Assembly (NCBI GenBank): GCA_022649665.1
Contig: JALCOL010000003.1
Location: 186,001 to 250,000 of the forward strand
Reading direction: 5' to 3'
Length of the DNA: 64,000 bases
DNA from: Enterococcaceae bacterium
Lineage (GTDB): Bacteria > Bacillota > Bacilli > Lactobacillales > Enterococcaceae
The position numbers were made by a program, and so were the translations under genes. Position 1 is the first letter of the stretch. Every line of letters starts with the position of its first letter. Below are positions 13,472 through 24,713 of this stretch, one piece after another. Under the pieces are notes generated by a model, which saw nothing but the letters and a program-made list of their open reading frames with translations, was not told the origin of the DNA and ran no database searches.

Positions 13472-13546
13472 ATGCAGCGTTCAAATCCAAACAACTTAAG
13501 CAATCTTCGTTGGCAGCTTTGGCATAGATCGTTGTATGTATGGTGA
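13472..13546 (+). CDS. Tryptophan leader peptide, 24 residues
   Basis: ATG 13472 lies eight bases after an excellent ribosome site (GAGGAGG, 13457-13463). The 24-residue peptide ends WQLWHRSLYVW, with three TGG codons at 13511, 13520 and 13541 and the stop at 13544-13546. Three Trp in eleven residues, a strong promoter and the downstream terminator mark it as a ribosome-stalling sensor of charged tRNA-Trp. The peptide itself probably has no other function. Confidence 0.85.
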   Translation: MQRSNPNNLSNLRWQLWHRSLYVW

Positions 13547-13650
13547 TTTTCCCATAGATGCAACTTTTAGAGACCCTCTAAACTTTGTATCTATGTCGGT
13601 GGAATGAAATTAAAAGACCACATAGATTTCGATCTATGTGGTCTTTTTTG
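13532..13650 (+). promoter_or_regulatory. Trp attenuator: five complementary segments plus terminator
   Basis: Segment 1 (13532-13543, inside the leader ORF) pairs with segment 2 (13552-13563) over 11 pairs with one mismatch. Segment 2 (13553-13563) pairs with segment 3 (13585-13595) over 11 pairs, with an inner hairpin TTTAGAG/CTCTAAA. Segment 3 (13589-13600) pairs with segment 4 (13617-13627) with one bulge, forming the antiterminator. Segment 4 (13612-13627) pairs with segment 5 (13632-13647) through a perfect 16-pair stem, TTCG loop and T-run, forming the terminator. Stalling at the first two Trp codons should leave 1:2 free to form and so allow 3:4 (read-through). A ribosome at the stop codon should cover segment 1 and favour 2:3 and termination. 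Confidence 0.82.
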
Positions 13651-13703
13651 TGGTCAAAATCCGCACCAACGTGTTTGTTTACTATTTTAGGAGGAATGGA
13701 AAA

Positions 13704-14747
13704 ATGAAAAATCGCGGCTTAACTATCGTTACATCACTCATTATCGGCATTTTGATCGGCGGCTTCCTGCTTCAGCCGAAAGGGCTTTTCAATCGTTCAG
13801 CAAAGTCCGATGAAACCAAAGCAAGCACGACAGAAAAAGCATCCACCGGCAAAAAGCGCGTCGGCGTGCTGCAATATGTCTCACATCCCGCACTTGATGC
13901 GATCTATAAAGGGATCCAAGAAGGCTTGAAAGATAAAGGATACGATAAAAATAAAGTAGAGATCCTTTTTCAGAACGGTCAAGGAGACCAAAGCAAATTA
14001 AACACGATGACCGACCAGCTGATCAATCAAAAAAGCGATGTCTTGATCGGGATCGCCACCCCAGCAGCCAAAGCGCTCGCCAACGCGACAACGAAGATCC
14101 CGATCGTGATGGGAGCGATCACGGATCCGGTCGCCGCAGGACTTGTAAAAGATATGAAAAATCCGGGCGGAAACATCACCGGCGTGAGCGACCAATCCCC
14201 GGTCAAAGCACAGATGGAGCTCGCCCAAAAACTATTGCCGGAAGCGAAAACCGTTGGCTTATTCTCTTCCAGTGCTGAAGACAATTCCGCTTCGCAGATC
14301 GCCCAAGCGAAAAAGGCAGCGGAAGCTTTAGGGTATCAAACGAAAGAATATCAAGTGCCGAGCACCAATGAGATCGCACAAGTCGTACAGACGATGAGTA
14401 AAGAAGTCGATTTCATTTACATCCCGACCGACAATACGATCGCCAGCGCGATGGATACCGTCGTAGCGGAAGCAAACAAATCGAAAACACCAGTCATTCC
14501 GTCTGTTGACACGATGGTCGAAGCCGGCGGGCTGGCAACGATTGGGATCAATCAAAAAGCACTCGGGGTCGAAACCGGTAAAATGGCCGCTGAAATTTTA
14601 GACGGCAAGCAACCGGGTAAAATGCCGATCTATGTTTTCAACACCGGAGACACGATCATTAACCAAAAAGAAGCCGATCTCTTAGGGATCACGATCCCGA
14701 AAGACGTCGCTAAAGATGCTAAAATCGTAGGAGGGGATGCGAAATGA
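13704..14747 (+). CDS. trpX: ABC transporter substrate-binding protein, tryptophan-type
   Basis: 347 residues, ABC substrate-binding family PF04392. An N-terminal hydrophobic segment (TIVTSLIIGILIGGFLL) has no lipobox Cys, so the protein is membrane-anchored or secreted. A Ser/Thr/Lys-rich linker leads to the binding domain starting at KKRVGVLQYVSHPALDAIY. The start at ATG 13704 is nine bases after AGGAGG (13689-13694); the longer in-frame form would begin inside the terminator tail. The Trp leader upstream is the main reason to assign tryptophan as ligand, matching the TrpXYZ systems of streptococci. Confidence 0.82.
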   Translation: MKNRGLTIVTSLIIGILIGGFLLQPKGLFNRSAKSDETKASTTEKASTGKKRVGVLQYVSHPALDAIYKGIQEGLKDKGYDKNKVEILFQNGQGDQSKLNTMTDQLINQKSDVLIGIATPAAKALANATTKIPIVMGAITDPVAAGLVKDMKNPGGNITGVSDQSPVKAQMELAQKLLPEAKTVGLFSSSAEDNSASQIAQAKKAAEALGYQTKEYQVPSTNEIAQVVQTMSKEVDFIYIPTDNTIASAMDTVVAEANKSKTPVIPSVDTMVEAGGLATIGINQKALGVETGKMAAEILDGKQPGKMPIYVFNTGDTIINQKEADLLGITIPKDVAKDAKIVGGDAK

Positions 14748-15640: not shown

Positions 15641-16406
15641 AGTATTGGTTTTAAATGATTTAGTGAAAACAGTGCAAAATGGCGGCGTTGAAGCCTTCAA
15701 TATTTTGGATCATTTGTCGCTCACCGTCGATAAAGGGGACTTTATCACGGTCCTCGGCGGAAACGGCGCCGGGAAGAGCACGATGTTCAATGCGATCGCC
15801 GGCACGCTGAAAGTCGATAGCGGGTCGATCGCTTTGAACGATCAGCCGATCACGAAAGATTCCGAAGAAAAACGCGCCAAATATATTTCACGCGTTTTCC
15901 AAGACCCGAAAATGGGGACTGCTCCGCGGATGACCGTCGCCGAAAATCTCTTGCTGGCGGAAACCCGCGGCAAGCATCGCAACCTTAAAAATCGGCATTT
16001 GAAAGCGAAACTTGCACAATATAAAAAATTGACTGCAACGATCAGCAACGGACTTGAAGATCACTTGAATACTCCGACTGGAAATCTTTCGGGCGGACAG
16101 CGGCAAGCATTGAGCCTTTTGATGGCAACGATCTTGAAGCCGCAGCTTTTGATGTTGGATGAACATACGGCAGCCTTAGATCCGAAAACTTCTAAACAAT
16201 TGATGGCGCTGACTGCGCAAACGATCGAACGCGACCAATTGACGTGCCTGATGATCACTCACCGGATGGAAGATGCCTTAAAATACGGCAACCGGCTGAT
16301 CTTGATCGAAAAAGGCAAAGTCAAAATGGACTTGCGCGGCGAAGAAAAGCGCAAGCTGACGATGAAAGACGTTTTGGAATTTTTCGAAGAAAATGAAAAT
16401 GATTAG
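15633..16406 (+). CDS. trpZ: ABC transporter ATP-binding protein, tryptophan-type
   Basis: 257 residues with Walker A GGNGAGKST, signature LSGGQRQALS and Walker B LLMLDEHTAALD. The start is ATG 15633, eight bases after GGAAGGAG (15617-15624), and overlaps the permease stop by eight bases; an upstream in-frame ATG at 15609 has no ribosome site. Energises import by the two preceding proteins. Confidence 0.88.
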   Translation: MTKVLVLNDLVKTVQNGGVEAFNILDHLSLTVDKGDFITVLGGNGAGKSTMFNAIAGTLKVDSGSIALNDQPITKDSEEKRAKYISRVFQDPKMGTAPRMTVAENLLLAETRGKHRNLKNRHLKAKLAQYKKLTATISNGLEDHLNTPTGNLSGGQRQALSLLMATILKPQLLMLDEHTAALDPKTSKQLMALTAQTIERDQLTCLMITHRMEDALKYGNRLILIEKGKVKMDLRGEEKRKLTMKDVLEFFEENEND

Positions 16407-16426
16407 AAAATCATGGCAGTTTCTTA

Positions 16427-16455
16427 TTGACATCCAATAATATAAAGCATATACT
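16427..16455 (+). promoter_or_regulatory. Sigma-A promoter of the aromatic leader and aro operon
   Basis: TTGACA (16427-16432) and TATACT (16450-16455) with exactly 17 bases between. It lies 21 bases after the transporter ATPase stop, so the aro genes have their own start, near 16462. Confidence 0.88.
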
Positions 16456-16485
16456 TTGTTCAATCTTTCAAATGGAGTGGTTATT

Positions 16486-16539
16486 ATGACGAAGAAAACA
16501 CACCAATTGAATACGTATTACTTTAGCTATTTTGGATAA
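16486..16539 (+). CDS. Tyr/Phe leader peptide, 17 residues
   Basis: The peptide is MTKKTHQLNTYYFSYFG. Five of its last seven residues are Tyr or Phe (codons at 16516, 16519, 16522, 16528 and 16531), and the stop is at 16537-16539. A GGAG (16474-16477) precedes ATG 16486 by eight bases. It sits between a strong promoter and a set of mutually exclusive hairpins ahead of aroE, as expected for a sensor of charged tRNA-Tyr and tRNA-Phe. Confidence 0.85.
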   Translation: MTKKTHQLNTYYFSYFG

Positions 16540-16540
16540 A

Positions 16541-16655
16541 CTGTATTCACGATTCATTGTGGATACAGCTGACAAAGTGTATCTACAATGGCTAAGGGAT
16601 TTTTGAGCGACGATTTCCAAGCCATGTAGAAGTAAAATTCTAGGTGGCTTTTTCT
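16541..16655 (+). promoter_or_regulatory. Tyr/Phe attenuator: five complementary segments plus terminator
   Basis: Segment 1 (16541-16550) pairs with 2 (16559-16568) over 10 pairs. Segment 2 (16555-16566) pairs with 3 (16579-16590) over 12 pairs with one G-U. Segment 3 (16582-16593) pairs with 4 (16620-16630) over 11 pairs with one bulge, forming the antiterminator. Segment 4 (16619-16631) pairs with 5 (16638-16650) over 12 pairs with one mismatch, followed by TTTTTCTTTT, forming the terminator. A ribosome stalled on the first Tyr codons leaves segment 1 free, so 1:2 and then 3:4 form and transcription continues. A ribosome at the stop codon covers segment 1, letting 2:3 and then 4:5 form. 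Confidence 0.82.
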
Positions 16656-16673
16656 TTTACCGATATTTTCTGA

Positions 16674-16712
16674 AAAAAGCCTGCCGCAGAATTTTACTGC
16701 GGCAGGCTTTTT
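16674..16712 (+). terminator. Second terminator-like hairpin before aroE
   Basis: A perfect 16-pair stem (16674-16689 with 16697-16712, core GCCTGCCGCAG) with a 7-base loop, ending in five T residues and then C. It lies after the attenuator and only about 36 bases before the aroE start, with no promoter between. It may act as a partial terminator, a processing or stability element, or a terminator for short leader transcripts. Confidence 0.65.
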
Positions 16713-16748
16713 CGTTGGAATCGTTCCTTACAAGAGAGGAAGATGCAC

Positions 16749-17636
16749 GTGATCACTGGTCAAACAAAATTCGCCGGATTATTTGCCCACCCGGCGCGGC
16801 ATTCGCTTTCGCCGCAGATCCAAAATCGTTTATTCAAAGACTGCGGAGTCGACGGGGTCTACCTGGCCTTTGATATCGTGCCCGCTGAACTCGAAAAAGC
16901 GGTCGAAAGCTTGAAAACACTCGATGCCTTTGGTGCAAACTTATCTATGCCGCATAAAGAAGCTGCGCCTGCTCTGATGGATGAAGTCAGCACTCAAGTC
17001 GCCTTGACGGGGGCAATGAACACGATCATCTGGGACGGCCAGAAGCTGTACGGGGAATCGACGGATGGTGTTGGATTTTTCCGGGCGCTCGCGTCAGAAA
17101 AAATCACCACTGCCGAAAAGACGCTTCTGATCTTCGGCGGCGGCGGTGCAGTCAAGTCGATTTTAGCGGCGGCCAGCCGCTTTGGGCCGGCCGTCGTTCA
17201 AGTGGCCTTGCGAAGCAGCGCTCACCGGGAAGCGACCCAAAAAGAGCTGCAAAAAATCGCCGCAGCCACCGGACTTCATCTGCGTTTCATCGCGCTGGAA
17301 GAGCTGCAGGAACTGCAAGCGGCAGTGGATGCGGCAGACATTCTCATTAATGGAACCAATGCTGGAATGACGCCGCATCTGGAAACATCAGCCCTTCCTG
17401 AGGAGATCCATTATTCTTCGGAAAAGGCATTTATCGATTTAGTGTATGCTCCGCTGGAAACGGTATTTTTGAAACGGGCCCGCTTGAAAGGCTGCCGGAC
17501 TTTGAACGGCTTAGCGATGCTGTTGTTCCAAGGAATCGCCTCTTTTGAACTATGGACTGGAAAATCGCCGGCTGCGTCGACAGTCGAAGCACTTAAAAAA
17601 GAGCTTTTTGAAATCAATCAGAAAAAAGAAAACTAG
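16749..17636 (+). CDS. aroE: Shikimate dehydrogenase
   Basis: About 295 residues. Shows SLSPQ, the catalytic-Lys region NLSMPHK, the ESTDGVGF motif and the nucleotide-binding [13 protein letters not shown]. Reduces 3-dehydroshikimate to shikimate with NADPH. The start is probably GTG 16749 (giving [10 protein letters not shown]), because the AGAGGA ribosome site is about eight bases away; ATG 16743 is only about three bases from it. First structural gene of the aro operon and the gene directly controlled by the Tyr/Phe attenuator. Confidence 0.93.
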
Positions 17637-17647
17637 GAGGAATCTCA

Positions 17648-18676
17648 ATGATCATTATTATGAAAAACAACGCGACCCCGAAACAAGTCAAACAAGTCGT
17701 TTCGCGCATCAAACAGGAAGGCTTCAATGCGCAGCTCAGCCAAGGAAGACAACATATGGTGATCGGTGTTTTAGGCGACACGCATCGCTTGCAAGACCGC
17801 TTATTCTTGAGTTACGAAGGAGTGGAAAACGCGATCCGCATCACTCATACGTACAAGCTGACCTCGCGTGACTTCCATCCGGCGAATACTGTCGTCGATG
17901 TCGATGGGGTCAAAGTCGGCAATGGCAACTTCGTCACGATGGCCGGGCCTTGCGCGATCGAAAGCTTGGAACAGATCCAGGAAACTGCTGAGATCGTGCG
18001 CGCAGGCGGCGGCCAGATCTTGCGCGGCGGAGCGTTCAAACCGCGCACTTCACCATACTCTTTCCAAGGATTGGGCGAGGAAGGCTTGAAGTACATCCGG
18101 CAAGCGGCAGATGAGAACGGCTTGAAAGTGATCACTGAAGTAATGGATGAAGAAAATGTTGATCTTGTTGCCGAATACAGCGACATCATGCAGATCGGCG
18201 CGCGCAATATGCAAAACTTCCGTTTGCTGGAAGCGGTCGGGCGAACGGGGAAACCCGTCGGCTTGAAGCGCGGGATCAGCGGGACGATCGAAGAATGGTT
18301 GAATGCAGCTGAATATGTTGCGAACCAAGGAAATCAGCAAGTGATCTTTATCGAACGCGGGATCCGCACCTACGAAACAGCGACCCGCAATACGCTTGAC
18401 TTGAGTGCGGTTCCGCTGATCAAAAAAATGAGTCATTTCCCGATCATCGTCGATCCGAGCCACGGGACAGGCTTATGGGACCTTGTGACACCGATGGCCC
18501 GTGCCAGCGTCGCTGCTGGAGCAGATGGCTTGATCGTTGAAGTTCATCCGGATCCGTCACACGCGTTAAGCGACGGTCCGCAATCGCTGAACGAAGCGCA
18601 CTACCTTGAAATGATGGAACAAATCGAACAGCTCCAGCAAGCGATGGAACAAATCCGTGCTTTGCCGGTTGCCTAA
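17648..18676 (+). CDS. aroF: DAHP synthase, type I-beta with ferredoxin-like domain
   Basis: 342 residues. Residues 1-75 form the ferredoxin-like regulatory domain seen in Thermotoga-type DAHP synthase, and the barrel starts near [19 protein letters not shown]. Motifs [15 protein letters not shown] and VDPSHGTG are present. It condenses PEP and erythrose-4-phosphate, the first committed step. In related enzymes the N-terminal domain gives Tyr/Phe feedback inhibition. It has no chorismate mutase domain. AGGAGG precedes ATG 17648. Confidence 0.94.
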
Positions 18677-18691
18677 AGGAGAACTTTGCCG

Positions 18692-19771
18692 ATGAAAGAA
18701 TTAAAAGTAAACATCCCGCAACACGCCTACACGATCACGATCGACCGCGGTGCCTTGAAAAATTCCGGTGCTTGGCTGGAAAAAATTTTCACTCCGCGCA
18801 AATTGATGATCGTGACGGATGATATCGTTGATTCGCTGTATTCCAAAACGCTCATCAATGCTCTAGAAGGACATGGTTTTGAGCTGTTCAAGACCGTGAT
18901 CCCGAATGGCGAACGCTCGAAATCGCTCGCTGAAGCGGAAAAGTTATACGACGCGCTGGCTGACGCGGAATTTACACGGACGGACAGTGTCGTTGCTCTG
19001 GGCGGCGGAGTCGTCGGCGACTTGGCAGCATTTGCAGCTTCGACCTTTATGCGCGGCATTTCGTTCGTCCAGATCCCGACCACGCTCTTAGCGCAAGTCG
19101 ACTCGAGCATCGGCGGCAAGACCGCGGTCAACACGACGCGGGCGAAAAATCTAGTCGGCACTTTTGCGCAGCCGTGCGGCGTTTTGATCGATCCCGAAGT
19201 ATTGCAGACACTTGAGATGCGCCACGTCCGCGAAGGGATCGCGGAGATCGTGAAATGTGCCGCGATCGCTGACGCAAGTCTTTGGCAGGAACTGGCGGAG
19301 CTGAAAGACGAAGAGGATCTGCTGGCACATTGCGAGTCAGTGATCTTAGCGTGTTTGGAAGTCAAACGCAAAGTCGTCGAAGAAGATGTCTTTGATAACG
19401 GCCAGCGCTTGATCTTGAATTTCGGCCATACGATCGGACACGCTATCGAAAATACATTCGGCTACGGCGTGATCACGCACGGCGAAGGAGTCGCGCTTGG
19501 AATGGTCCAATTGACACGGATCGCCGAAGAAAAAGGGTTGACACCTGCCGGAACGACGGAAAAAATCATTCAAATGCTGGAAAAATTCCATTTGCCAAGC
19601 AAACTTCCCGAATGGCCGGAAGAACAGCTGTATCACGCGCTGACCCATGATAAAAAAGCGCGCGGCCGCATGATCAAGATCATTACATTGAAAAAAATCG
19701 GCGAAGCAGAAATCACTGTGATCCCGGTAGAAGAGATGCGCGATTACTTGAAAGAGGAGGCGATCCAATGA
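18692..19771 (+). CDS. aroB: 3-dehydroquinate synthase
   Basis: 359 residues, with the NAD site [23 protein letters not shown] and the metal-binding HGEGVALGM region. Converts DAHP to 3-dehydroquinate. The start is taken as ATG 18692, ten bases after AAGGAG; an in-frame TTG at 18686 is too close to that site. It overlaps aroC by four bases. Confidence 0.94.
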
Positions 19772-20934
19772 CATTGCGATTACTAACAGCCGGCGAATCT
19801 CACGGACCAGAGCTTACGGCGATCATCGAGGGGCTGCCAGCCGGGATGCCGCTTGCAGCAGCAGACATCGACCGCGAATTGGCGCGCCGCCAAAAAGGCT
19901 ACGGCCGCGGCGGCCGAATGAAGATCGAAACTGATCAAGTCAAGATCACTTCAGGAGTCCGCCACGGACTGACTCTCGGCTCACCGGTGACGCTGGTCGT
20001 AGAGAACCACGACTGGAAAAACTGGGAAAAGGTCATGAACGCTGCTCCAAATCCAGAAGGAGCTGCTAAACGCCGGATCACTCATCCGCGGCCGGGACAT
20101 GCTGATCTGGTCGGCGGAATGAAATATGATTTCGCAGATCTTCGAAACGTTTTGGAACGCTCAAGTGCCCGCGAGACGACAATGCGCGTCGCCGTTGGTG
20201 CAGTCGCCAAAAAAATGCTGCACGAATTAGGGATCGAAACTGCAGCACTCGTGACCTCGCTCGGCGGAGTCGCAGCAAGTGTTCCGGAACGGCCGCTCGC
20301 CGAGATCCAGCAGCTGACTGAAGAGTCCGCAGTCCGAGTGGCGGATCCCGAGGCCGAAGAAGCGATGATCGGCGCGATTGATGCGGCGAAAAAAGCGGGC
20401 GACACTTTGGGCGGCACGATCCGCGTGATCGTTGAAAACTTGCCGGCCGGTCTCGGCTCCTATGTCGAATGGGACCGCAAACTCGATGCGCGTTTAGCGA
20501 TGGCAGTCATCAGCATCAATGCATTCAAGGCCGTTTCTTTCGGCGAAGGAAACCAGTTAGGCGAGCTGCCAGGCTCATTAGTCCAAGATGAGATCGTTTG
20601 GGACAAAACACACGGCTACTCGCGAAAAACGAATCATCTCGGCGGGATGGAAGGCGGAATGACGAGCGGCATGCCGCTCGTCATCAATGGAGTGATGAAG
20701 CCGATCCCCACGCTTTATAAACCGCTCGATACGGTCGATATCGAAACAAAAGAAGTCTATCAGGCAACCGTCGAACGTTCTGACACGACTGCTGTCCCAG
20801 CGGCAGCGGTCGTGATGGAAAATGTTGTTGCAACGGAGCTGGCCAAAGTATTGAGTGAACAGTTTTCAGCAGATAGCTTTGAACGCCTGAAGCGCGAAGT
20901 GGCTGCTTACCGCATGACACTTCAAAATTGGTAG
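19768..20934 (+). CDS. aroC: Chorismate synthase
   Basis: 388 residues beginning [24 protein letters not shown], the family signature. It uses reduced FMN to convert EPSP to chorismate. The start overlaps the aroB stop (ATGA), indicating translational coupling. Confidence 0.95.
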
Positions 20935-20949
20935 AGAGGAACGACTTAT

Positions 20950-22056
20950 TTGGAAAAAATACTAATCATCGGCTTGGGATTGATTGGCGGCTCGCTTGCC
21001 CTGAATATCAAAGAAAATACAAACGATGAAGTGCTCGGTTTCGATGCGGATCCGAAGCACCGCCAAGAAGCAGAAAAGCGTCAGTTAACTGACCAGATCG
21101 TTGATGATTATCAGCAGGCAGCCAAAAGCGCCGATGTGATCATTTTAGCGGTTCCTGTCCAAGCCGCGCTCCAGCTTTTGGATGAACTCGCTCAAGTACC
21201 GCTGAAACAGCGGGTGATCATTACCGATACCGGCAGTACGAAGCAAACCGTGATGGCGAAAGCTGCTGCACTGCCAACTCTTGAAGCAAATTTTATTGGC
21301 GGCCATCCGATGGCTGGATCGCATAAATCCGGCCCGGACGCTGCCAGAAGCGATCTCTTTGAAAATGCTTATTATTTTTTGACGCCCGCACCGACCGCTT
21401 CGCCCGAGAAAATCGAACGGCTCAAAAAATTATTAGCCGCGACCGACAGCAAGTTCATCGTAGCTGCTGCTAAAGACCATGATGAAGTCACTAGTAATTT
21501 GAGCCATATTCCGCATATCATGGCAGCCGGACTGGTCAACCAAACGCGCCGTTTTTCTGAAAACTATCCTGAGATCACGCGCTTGGCGGCCGGCGGATTC
21601 AAGGACATTACCCGGATCGCCTCCTCCGACCCGGTCATGTGGACGGATATCCTGCTGACGAACCGCGAAGCGATCCATGAGCAGTTGACAGATTGGCAGG
21701 AAGTATTGGCAAAGATCCAAAAATGGCTCGAAACGCGCGATCAGGAAAAGATCCTGCAATTTTTTGAGGGAGCAAAGGCGACTCGCGATACTTTGCCGAA
21801 AAAAGCACCAGGCGTTTTGCCAAGCTTTTACGATTTGTTCGTCGATATCCCGGATCGCGCCGGTTCGATCAGCGACGTCACCCTGCTTTTAGCGAAGGCC
21901 GATTTGTCGCTGGTCAATATCCGGATCCTCGAAACACGCGAAGAGATCAACGGGATCCTGCATTTGACTTTTCGTTCGCAAAGCGATCAGCAAAAAGCCG
22001 AGCGGGCGCTTCGCGAACATGGTTTTTCAGTCAAAGAAAATGTGACGGACGAATAG
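20950..22056 (+). CDS. tyrA: Prephenate dehydrogenase with ACT domain
   Basis: 368 residues. NAD-binding GLGLIGGSLA at the N-terminus, the dehydrogenase region with GGHPMAGSHKSG, and a C-terminal ACT domain starting near DLFVDIPDRAGSISDV. Oxidises prephenate to 4-hydroxyphenylpyruvate for tyrosine; the ACT domain suggests feedback control by Tyr. The start is TTG 20950 after GAGAGGA. It has no fused chorismate mutase. Confidence 0.93.
   Translation: MEKILIIGLGLIGGSLALNIKENTNDEVLGFDADPKHRQEAEKRQLTDQIVDDYQQAAKSADVIILAVPVQAALQLLDELAQVPLKQRVIITDTGSTKQTVMAKAAALPTLEANFIGGHPMAGSHKSGPDAARSDLFENAYYFLTPAPTASPEKIERLKKLLAATDSKFIVAAAKDHDEVTSNLSHIPHIMAAGLVNQTRRFSENYPEITRLAAGGFKDITRIASSDPVMWTDILLTNREAIHEQLTDWQEVLAKIQKWLETRDQEKILQFFEGAKATRDTLPKKAPGVLPSFYDLFVDIPDRAGSISDVTLLLAKADLSLVNIRILETREEINGILHLTFRSQSDQQKAERALREHGFSVKENVTDE

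Positions 22057-24713
<2,657 letters not shown>

Follow-up and report, generated by a model that had tools for sequence, protein, structure and literature searches.

The aro operon in the analyzed window, a 64-kb stretch of Enterococcaceae DNA, is very probably controlled by a ribosome-mediated transcription attenuator that reads the charging of Tyr (and Phe) tRNA by means of a chain of seven segments and two terminators. Working from sequence comparison, we describe here the anatomy of this leader, its conservation, the compensatory changes in every one of its helices and the agreement between leader codons and the gene that follows. The RNA itself is not new, as it has relatives in the Rfam families RF02863 and RF04312; what we propose is the concrete Tyr/Phe leader mechanism.

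Leader peptide and pairing segments upstream of aroE

The region had originally been predicted to contain a promoter, a 17-residue leader peptide and a set of pairing segments. Promoter and leader were both found (Table 1). The last seven residues of the leader (...YYFSYFG) include three Tyr and two Phe, and segment 1 begins one base past the stop codon, as claimed. In relatives promoter-like sequence is likewise located 5' of the leader, and the homologous peptides end in ...QLNNYYFSYFR directly before the stop codon. We therefore have a translatable leader ORF with a Shine-Dalgarno sequence and codons for the regulated amino acids near its end. Helices 1:2, 2:3 and 4:5 were recovered mechanically as inverted repeats and 3:4 by duplex folding. 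The second terminator (T2, 6:7), the 5:6 pairing and the 0:3 pairing had been overlooked. In 0:3 the final leader codons pair with segment 3 at 17 of 18 positions, and the minimum-energy fold shows this helix surrounding 1:2. Folding of the leader region reaches -88.5 kcal/mol compared to -53.7 +/- 4.2 for shuffled sequences (z = -8.2).

T2 is stronger than terminator 1 (T1, 4:5), is located between T1 and aroE and is conserved as the downstream hairpin of a tandem pair. Through its loop and 3' arm T1 is linked to the 5' arm and loop of T2 by two perfect duplexes, one of 11 bp (16631-16641 with 16688-16698) and one of 8 bp (16646-16653 with 16674-16681). Judged by this pairing, 5:6 is the putative antiterminator for T2, which brings the chain to seven segments with two checkpoints. 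Antiterminators and intrinsic terminators are thus mutually exclusive in the region. A simple terminator scan of positions 16000-17000 detected neither T1 nor T2 owing to its loop and mismatch rules, so both hairpins were located through repeats and folding.

Downstream, the operon encodes eight enzymes on one strand, with gaps of at most 15 bases or overlaps between the genes, all belonging to the pathway of the amino acids encoded in the leader. Inside the operon promoter-like and terminator-like matches are no more frequent than expected by chance. Together with the gene spacing this points to control of the whole operon from the leader. Its last ORF is a fusion of aroK and pheA of 452 aa.

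Table 1. Features of the Tyr/Phe attenuator, the aro operon and the related Trp attenuator in the window.
Feature	Position	Strand	Remarks
Trp leader MQRSNPNNLSNLRWQLWHRSLYVW of the related attenuator	13472..13546	+	
Trp attenuator RNA core	13551..13653	+	before trpX (13704-14747); terminator about 13612-13649
Sigma-70-type promoter TTGACA-17-TATACT	16427..16455	+	11/12 consensus matches
GGAG Shine-Dalgarno of leader ORF	16474..16477	+	within hairpin with leader codons Q-L-N
Leader ORF MTKKTHQLNTYYFSYFG, 17 codons	16486..16539	+	ATG 16486, TAA 16537-16539
Segment 0, leader codons F13 to stop	16521..16538	+	pairs with segment 3, encloses 1:2
Segment 1	16541..16553	+	inverted repeats, duplex folding
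Segment 2	16555..16568	+	inverted repeats, duplex folding
Segment 3	16578..16597	+	partner of 0, 2 or 4
Segment 4	16619..16631	+	antiterminator 3:4, or 5' arm of terminator 1
Segment 5	16638..16653	+	3' arm of terminator 1 and U-tract; other partner is segment 6
Terminator 1 (T1, 4:5)	16619..16659	+	followed by TTTTTCTTTT
Segment 6, 5' arm and loop of terminator 2	16674..16696	+	5:6 duplex -25.4 kcal/mol
Segment 7, 3' arm of terminator 2 and U-tract	16697..16712	+	
Terminator 2 (T2, 6:7)	16674..16713	+	16-bp perfect stem with TTTTT, 30 bases before aroE
aroE, shikimate dehydrogenase	16743..17636	+	first gene of the operon
aroF, DAHP synthase	17648..18676	+	
aroB	18686..19771	+	
aroC	19768..20934	+	
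tyrA, prephenate dehydrogenase	20950..22056	+	
aroA	22069..23358	+	
aroK-pheA fusion	23355..24713	+	shikimate kinase, prephenate dehydratase

Compensatory changes in the alternative helices

Homologs were aligned in a set of 86 sequences with less than 85% identity and in a strict set of 32 with less than 72% identity. For each helix the duplex energy of a segment with its own partner was compared to that with partners taken from other sequences. Among the 86 homologs this own-versus-swapped test gave p-values, which ignore relatedness, of 3e-7 for 0:3, 4e-15 for 1:2, 6e-10 for 2:3, 2e-3 for 3:4, 1e-13 for both 4:5 and 5:6, and 5e-15 for 6:7. Seven control pairings of the same segments yielded p-values of 0.01–0.98, with 1:3 borderline at 0.01. 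Since these controls come from the same sequences and fail, we argue that relatedness alone does not produce the values found for the helices. In the strict set all seven helices remained at p≤1.7e-3 (controls 0.04–0.95). Column-wise double changes were also counted, and for each of the seven helices their number was higher than in any of 200 shuffles. Thus the four helices of the original prediction, for which phylogenetic covariation had been proposed as a check, all show compensatory change beyond the controls. From a separate alignment of 32 sequences RNAalifold independently picked the combination 0:3, 1:2 and 4:5, with two-sided changes in 17 of 30 pairs. Overall, the conserved positions fall in the alternative helices and in the leader codons.

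These data also bear on a simpler arrangement with five segments only, in which switching takes place at T1, and T2 is either fortuitous or a terminator that is not regulated. T1 of the window does have a good U-tract and lies upstream of T2. However, T2 stands between T1 and aroE and would end every transcript unless it were regulated, and the 5:6 pairing that could regulate it is kept by compensatory change. In the window this pairing is highly stable although the T2 sequence differs from that of the relatives. Furthermore, T1 usually lacks a U-tract in copies that precede transporter genes: a U-tract follows T1 in 12% of these transporter-type copies versus 73% of the aro-type copies, and a U-run follows T2 in all. 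We therefore give the five-segment arrangement little credence. As transporter-type copies retain the 4:5 pairing, we read 4:5 as a relay hairpin that would double as a terminator in aro-type copies.

Conservation was also noticed in the leader ahead of the aromatic run. The residues Q-L-N (16504-16512 in the window) are kept across families, with the Leu codon varying between CTG, TTG, TTA and CTA. The hairpin of these codons with the Shine-Dalgarno region is itself supported in the homologs (own versus swapped partner p=2.8e-4). On the alignment, the conservation of Q-L-N with synonymous codons exceeds what tRNA sensing would require; the Shine-Dalgarno hairpin is one possible cause, an effect of the nascent peptide another. 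In the latter case QLNxYYFSYFR might act like TnaC and arrest the ribosome when free Tyr/Phe or some other signal is sensed, and the unusually strong conservation of the peptide would be explained directly. We consider such a sensor highly unlikely, as distant homologs carry quite different peptides on the same scaffold (FFFSDFR, YYYFGWFS, IFFNNHFR, WQNWRR) and the conservation of codons 13–17 is largely explained by their pairing with segment 3, again with compensatory change. The codon immediately 5' of the search pattern encodes Tyr or Phe in 77 of the 86 homologs, and the conservation of the leader codons is inflated because most homologs were gathered by a pattern located inside segment 0.

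Predicted coupling of ribosome position and termination

From covariation and codon content we infer ribosome stalling, the timing of folding during transcription and in vivo regulation as follows. A ribosome stalled at the Tyr/Phe codons would mask segment 0 and leave segment 1 open, allowing 1:2 to form. Helix 1:2 would free segment 3 for pairing with segment 4, blocking T1; 3:4 in turn would free segment 5 for pairing with segment 6, blocking T2, and the genes from aroE to pheA would be transcribed. A ribosome that reaches the stop codon would mask segments 0 and 1, so that 2:3 forms, followed by 4:5 (T1), which leaves segment 6 available for T2, and then by 6:7 (T2), and transcription would end. 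If no ribosome is present, segment 0 is expected to pair with segment 3 around 1:2, and in most relatives segment 4 would be free for T1, making termination the default.

We assessed the dependence on ribosome position by folding truncated transcripts at equilibrium with the ribosome footprint masked. In the window the probability of the 3:4 core was 0.93–0.97 with the A-site at T10 to Y15, 0.61 at F16, 0.09 at G17 and 0.00 at the stop codon. This agrees with the predicted direction, according to which a ribosome at the stop blocks segment 1 and a ribosome stalled at the Tyr codons does not; selection between the alternatives by ribosome position accordingly has masked folding as its evidence. 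The mean over 90 homologs was 0.54 for the stalled state, 0.08 at the stop codon and 0.14 with no ribosome, values that fit a three-state behaviour in the relatives in which the switch is on only when the ribosome is stalled. For the window without a ribosome, 0:3 reached 1.00 before segment 4 exists and 3:4 reached 0.96 afterwards at equilibrium, and the model leaves this state ambiguous. The very stable 5:6 pairing of the window would, at equilibrium, also compete with 4:5 when the ribosome is at the stop codon, so folding order matters.

Taken together, the Tyr/Phe attenuator of the original prediction holds with respect to leader conservation, covariation and folding, but its architecture had to be revised: T1 is not the sole terminator, and segments 0, 6 and 7 are needed.

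Distribution in relatives and genomic context

A leader of this type should be present wherever relatives keep the operon. We collected AroE homologs of relatives independently of the leader. Among the 29 loci with an upstream region long enough for assessment, 27 have a leader 5' of aroE whose last residues are YFSYFR or closely resemble it. A search with the leader pattern gave matches in 103 of the 105 family genomes, covering all 17 of 17 genera, commonly with two or three copies per genome. It is found in other families of the same order as well; named carriers include Enterococcus, Tetragenococcus, Vagococcus, Lactobacillus and Streptococcus. No NCBIfam model matched the leader peptides at E≤10.

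Some matches were discarded. A loose pattern allowing three mismatches gave only noise in the window's own genome (62 matches versus 181 in the reversed control). Exact matches in Borreliella, Alteromonas, an alphaproteobacterium, Achromatium and an Erysipelotrichaceae MAG were regarded as chance and dropped because they had no qualifying leader with an aromatic gene.

In 200 of 214 instances the next gene downstream belongs to the shikimate pathway or encodes a TrpX-like transporter. The TrpX-like ABC transporter accounts for 106 of these genes, aroE for 73, aroF for 10, aroB for 6, aroC for 4 and aroK for one. The window element matches RF02863 (sRNA_2410) over its full length with 46.2 bits (E 1.3e-6), below the gathering threshold of 61 bits, which leaders of relatives exceed. 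The Rfam consensus already includes 0:3, 1:2 and 4:5. RF02863 is typed "Gene; sRNA", and the E. faecium sRNA_2410 is a 195-nt RNA with two observed transcripts, demonstrated by expression and size only in the part of the paper considered here, which describes it as an sRNA and gives no leader peptide or cis mechanism (PMC5593968). The terminated leader transcript might accordingly act on other mRNAs in trans. We give this hardly any weight as the main function, since in the 200 instances the RNA is encoded directly 5' of, and on the same strand as, a gene for aromatic amino acids, as expected of a cis-acting element; action in trans could still occur as a by-product.

Leader codons correspond to the downstream gene

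The window contains a second element of this kind. The trpXPY transporter genes are preceded by an attenuator with the same core and a leader containing three Trp codons. TrpX orthologs adjoining aroE carry a Trp leader on a similar RNA, with WQNWRR in relatives and RWQLWHRSLYVW in the window. The leader of the window does not have the stop codon that follows WRR in relatives and extends by five codons (SLYVW) into segment 1. The window TrpX scores 449 bits against the NCBIfam TrpX equivalog (cut-off 390); of the TrpX paralogs preceded by Tyr/Phe leaders, the two tested score below this cut-off.

Copies outside the order were retrieved with a covariance model of the element. Among these homologs helix 0:3 has undergone compensated changes, as with AATAACCAT and ATGGTTATT in locus L360, which belongs to another class (G1134) and carries the Phe-codon leader IFFNNHFR before a sodium-dependent transporter gene. 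A Phe-only leader without Tyr (FFFSDFR) precedes prephenate dehydratase in genomes in which YFSYF precedes DAHP synthase: in three loci of family f48 (L347, L349, L351) TFFFSDFR is found before the prephenate dehydratase gene, and the aroF copy there has a Tyr/Phe leader. Two loci of another genome (L344 and L345 in G548) combine tandem hairpins with YYYFGWFS before a transketolase gene and YYYFGFFR before an aminotransferase gene. In Lactobacillus (L164, L198) two leaders each are present, one with Tyr only (RYYYSYYR or RYYLSYYR) and one with Tyr/Phe; the Tyr-only leader is the one preceding the TrpX paralog. In one locus (L371, G457) an RNA resembling the trpB motif has a leader with four consecutive His codons (HHHH) and precedes hisZ. 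Two matches lacking such a leader were treated as chance, one to the covariance model (G521, E 0.008) and one to RF04312 (L377, 39 bits).

RF04312 represents the trpB motif, which the Tyr/Phe element of the window matches with 42.6 bits and the Trp element with 49.7 bits (gathering threshold 59 bits); Trp-leader RNAs of relatives match with about 59–74 bits. We call the window elements homologs, not curated members, of RF02863 and RF04312. In a sample of the class, 17 of 18 RF04312 matches have a leader ending just before the match, with Trp codons in 13 cases, Tyr/Phe in three and His in one; the remaining match looks like a chance match. RF04312 and the R1 model detected nothing in the majority of the samples taken from the class and the phylum, under strict filters that lose weak matches.

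Published work favors a different reading, namely a riboswitch whose RNA binds an aromatic amino acid or a precursor directly, the short ORF being incidental. In Streptococcus agalactiae the 5'UTR elements gbs2033 and gbs1262, located before ABC transporters, undergo premature termination, and their short terminated RNAs share a start with long ones produced by read-through; the elements are conserved in Lactobacillales and were proposed as new riboswitches for aromatic amino acids (PMC4448216). The trpB motif (SRC-39-1) has been listed among strong riboswitch candidates, attenuation being described as "not ruled out" (PMC11109978). However, the structure is directly preceded by the end of a leader bearing a Shine-Dalgarno sequence, and the codons of this leader vary with the gene, with Trp, Tyr/Phe, Phe only, Tyr only and His types on an unchanged core. 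That codon content tracks the gene is expected of a codon reader and not of an aptamer. Moreover, what is conserved is a series of alternative helices incorporating leader codons. We consider a metabolite-binding riboswitch extremely improbable. The gbs2033 element has also been seen before the E. faecium aroFBC-tyrA operon (PMC4448216), and at this very site we found a Tyr/Phe leader in relatives of the E. faecium group such as E. villorum (L143). By our inference gbs1262 is of the Trp type. The term "leader peptide" is absent from PMC4448216.

Comparison with known systems

For an RNA annotated as sRNA or riboswitch in enterococci and streptococci, ribosome-mediated attenuation offers a mechanism, and the leader codons alone would predict the amino acid sensed by each copy. 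It seems rather more probable than not, if well short of firm, that one relay scaffold with swappable leader codons (Trp, Tyr/Phe, Phe only, Tyr only, His) governs the supply of aromatic amino acids and histidine in Bacilli as well as outside this class, that sRNA_2410 and the trpB motif (>900 members) are both such attenuators, and that in aro-type copies two serial terminators are opened together by one translation event. In the open-access full text searched we found no published Tyr/Phe leader-peptide mechanism, no match to YYFSYF and no relevant match for YFSYFR, WQNWRR or YYFSY.

Firmicutes are usually discussed as using T-boxes for such control. In the 64-kb window no Rfam family, T-box included, reached its gathering threshold, and no T-box was among the matches up to E=1 over the leader; with no T-box match at the leader, this reading was set aside. 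The attenuator described here is family-wide and would cover the supply of Tyr, Phe and Trp.

By its description uORFC-13-1 of Acholeplasma shares an upstream ORF with Phe codons before aroF and a terminator, but it is a separate motif from another lineage (PMC8632094). With the trp, phe and his attenuators of the E. coli type the element has in common a leader rich in codons for the end product, mutually exclusive hairpins and an intrinsic terminator before the first gene. It differs in having seven segments and two serial terminators and in the pairing of the leader codons with the antiterminator strand. Formation of 1:2 would lead to read-through and not, as in these systems, to the terminator, because the chain has one extra step. 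The relay of one ribosome decision through seven segments to two terminators would be an unusual serial arrangement.
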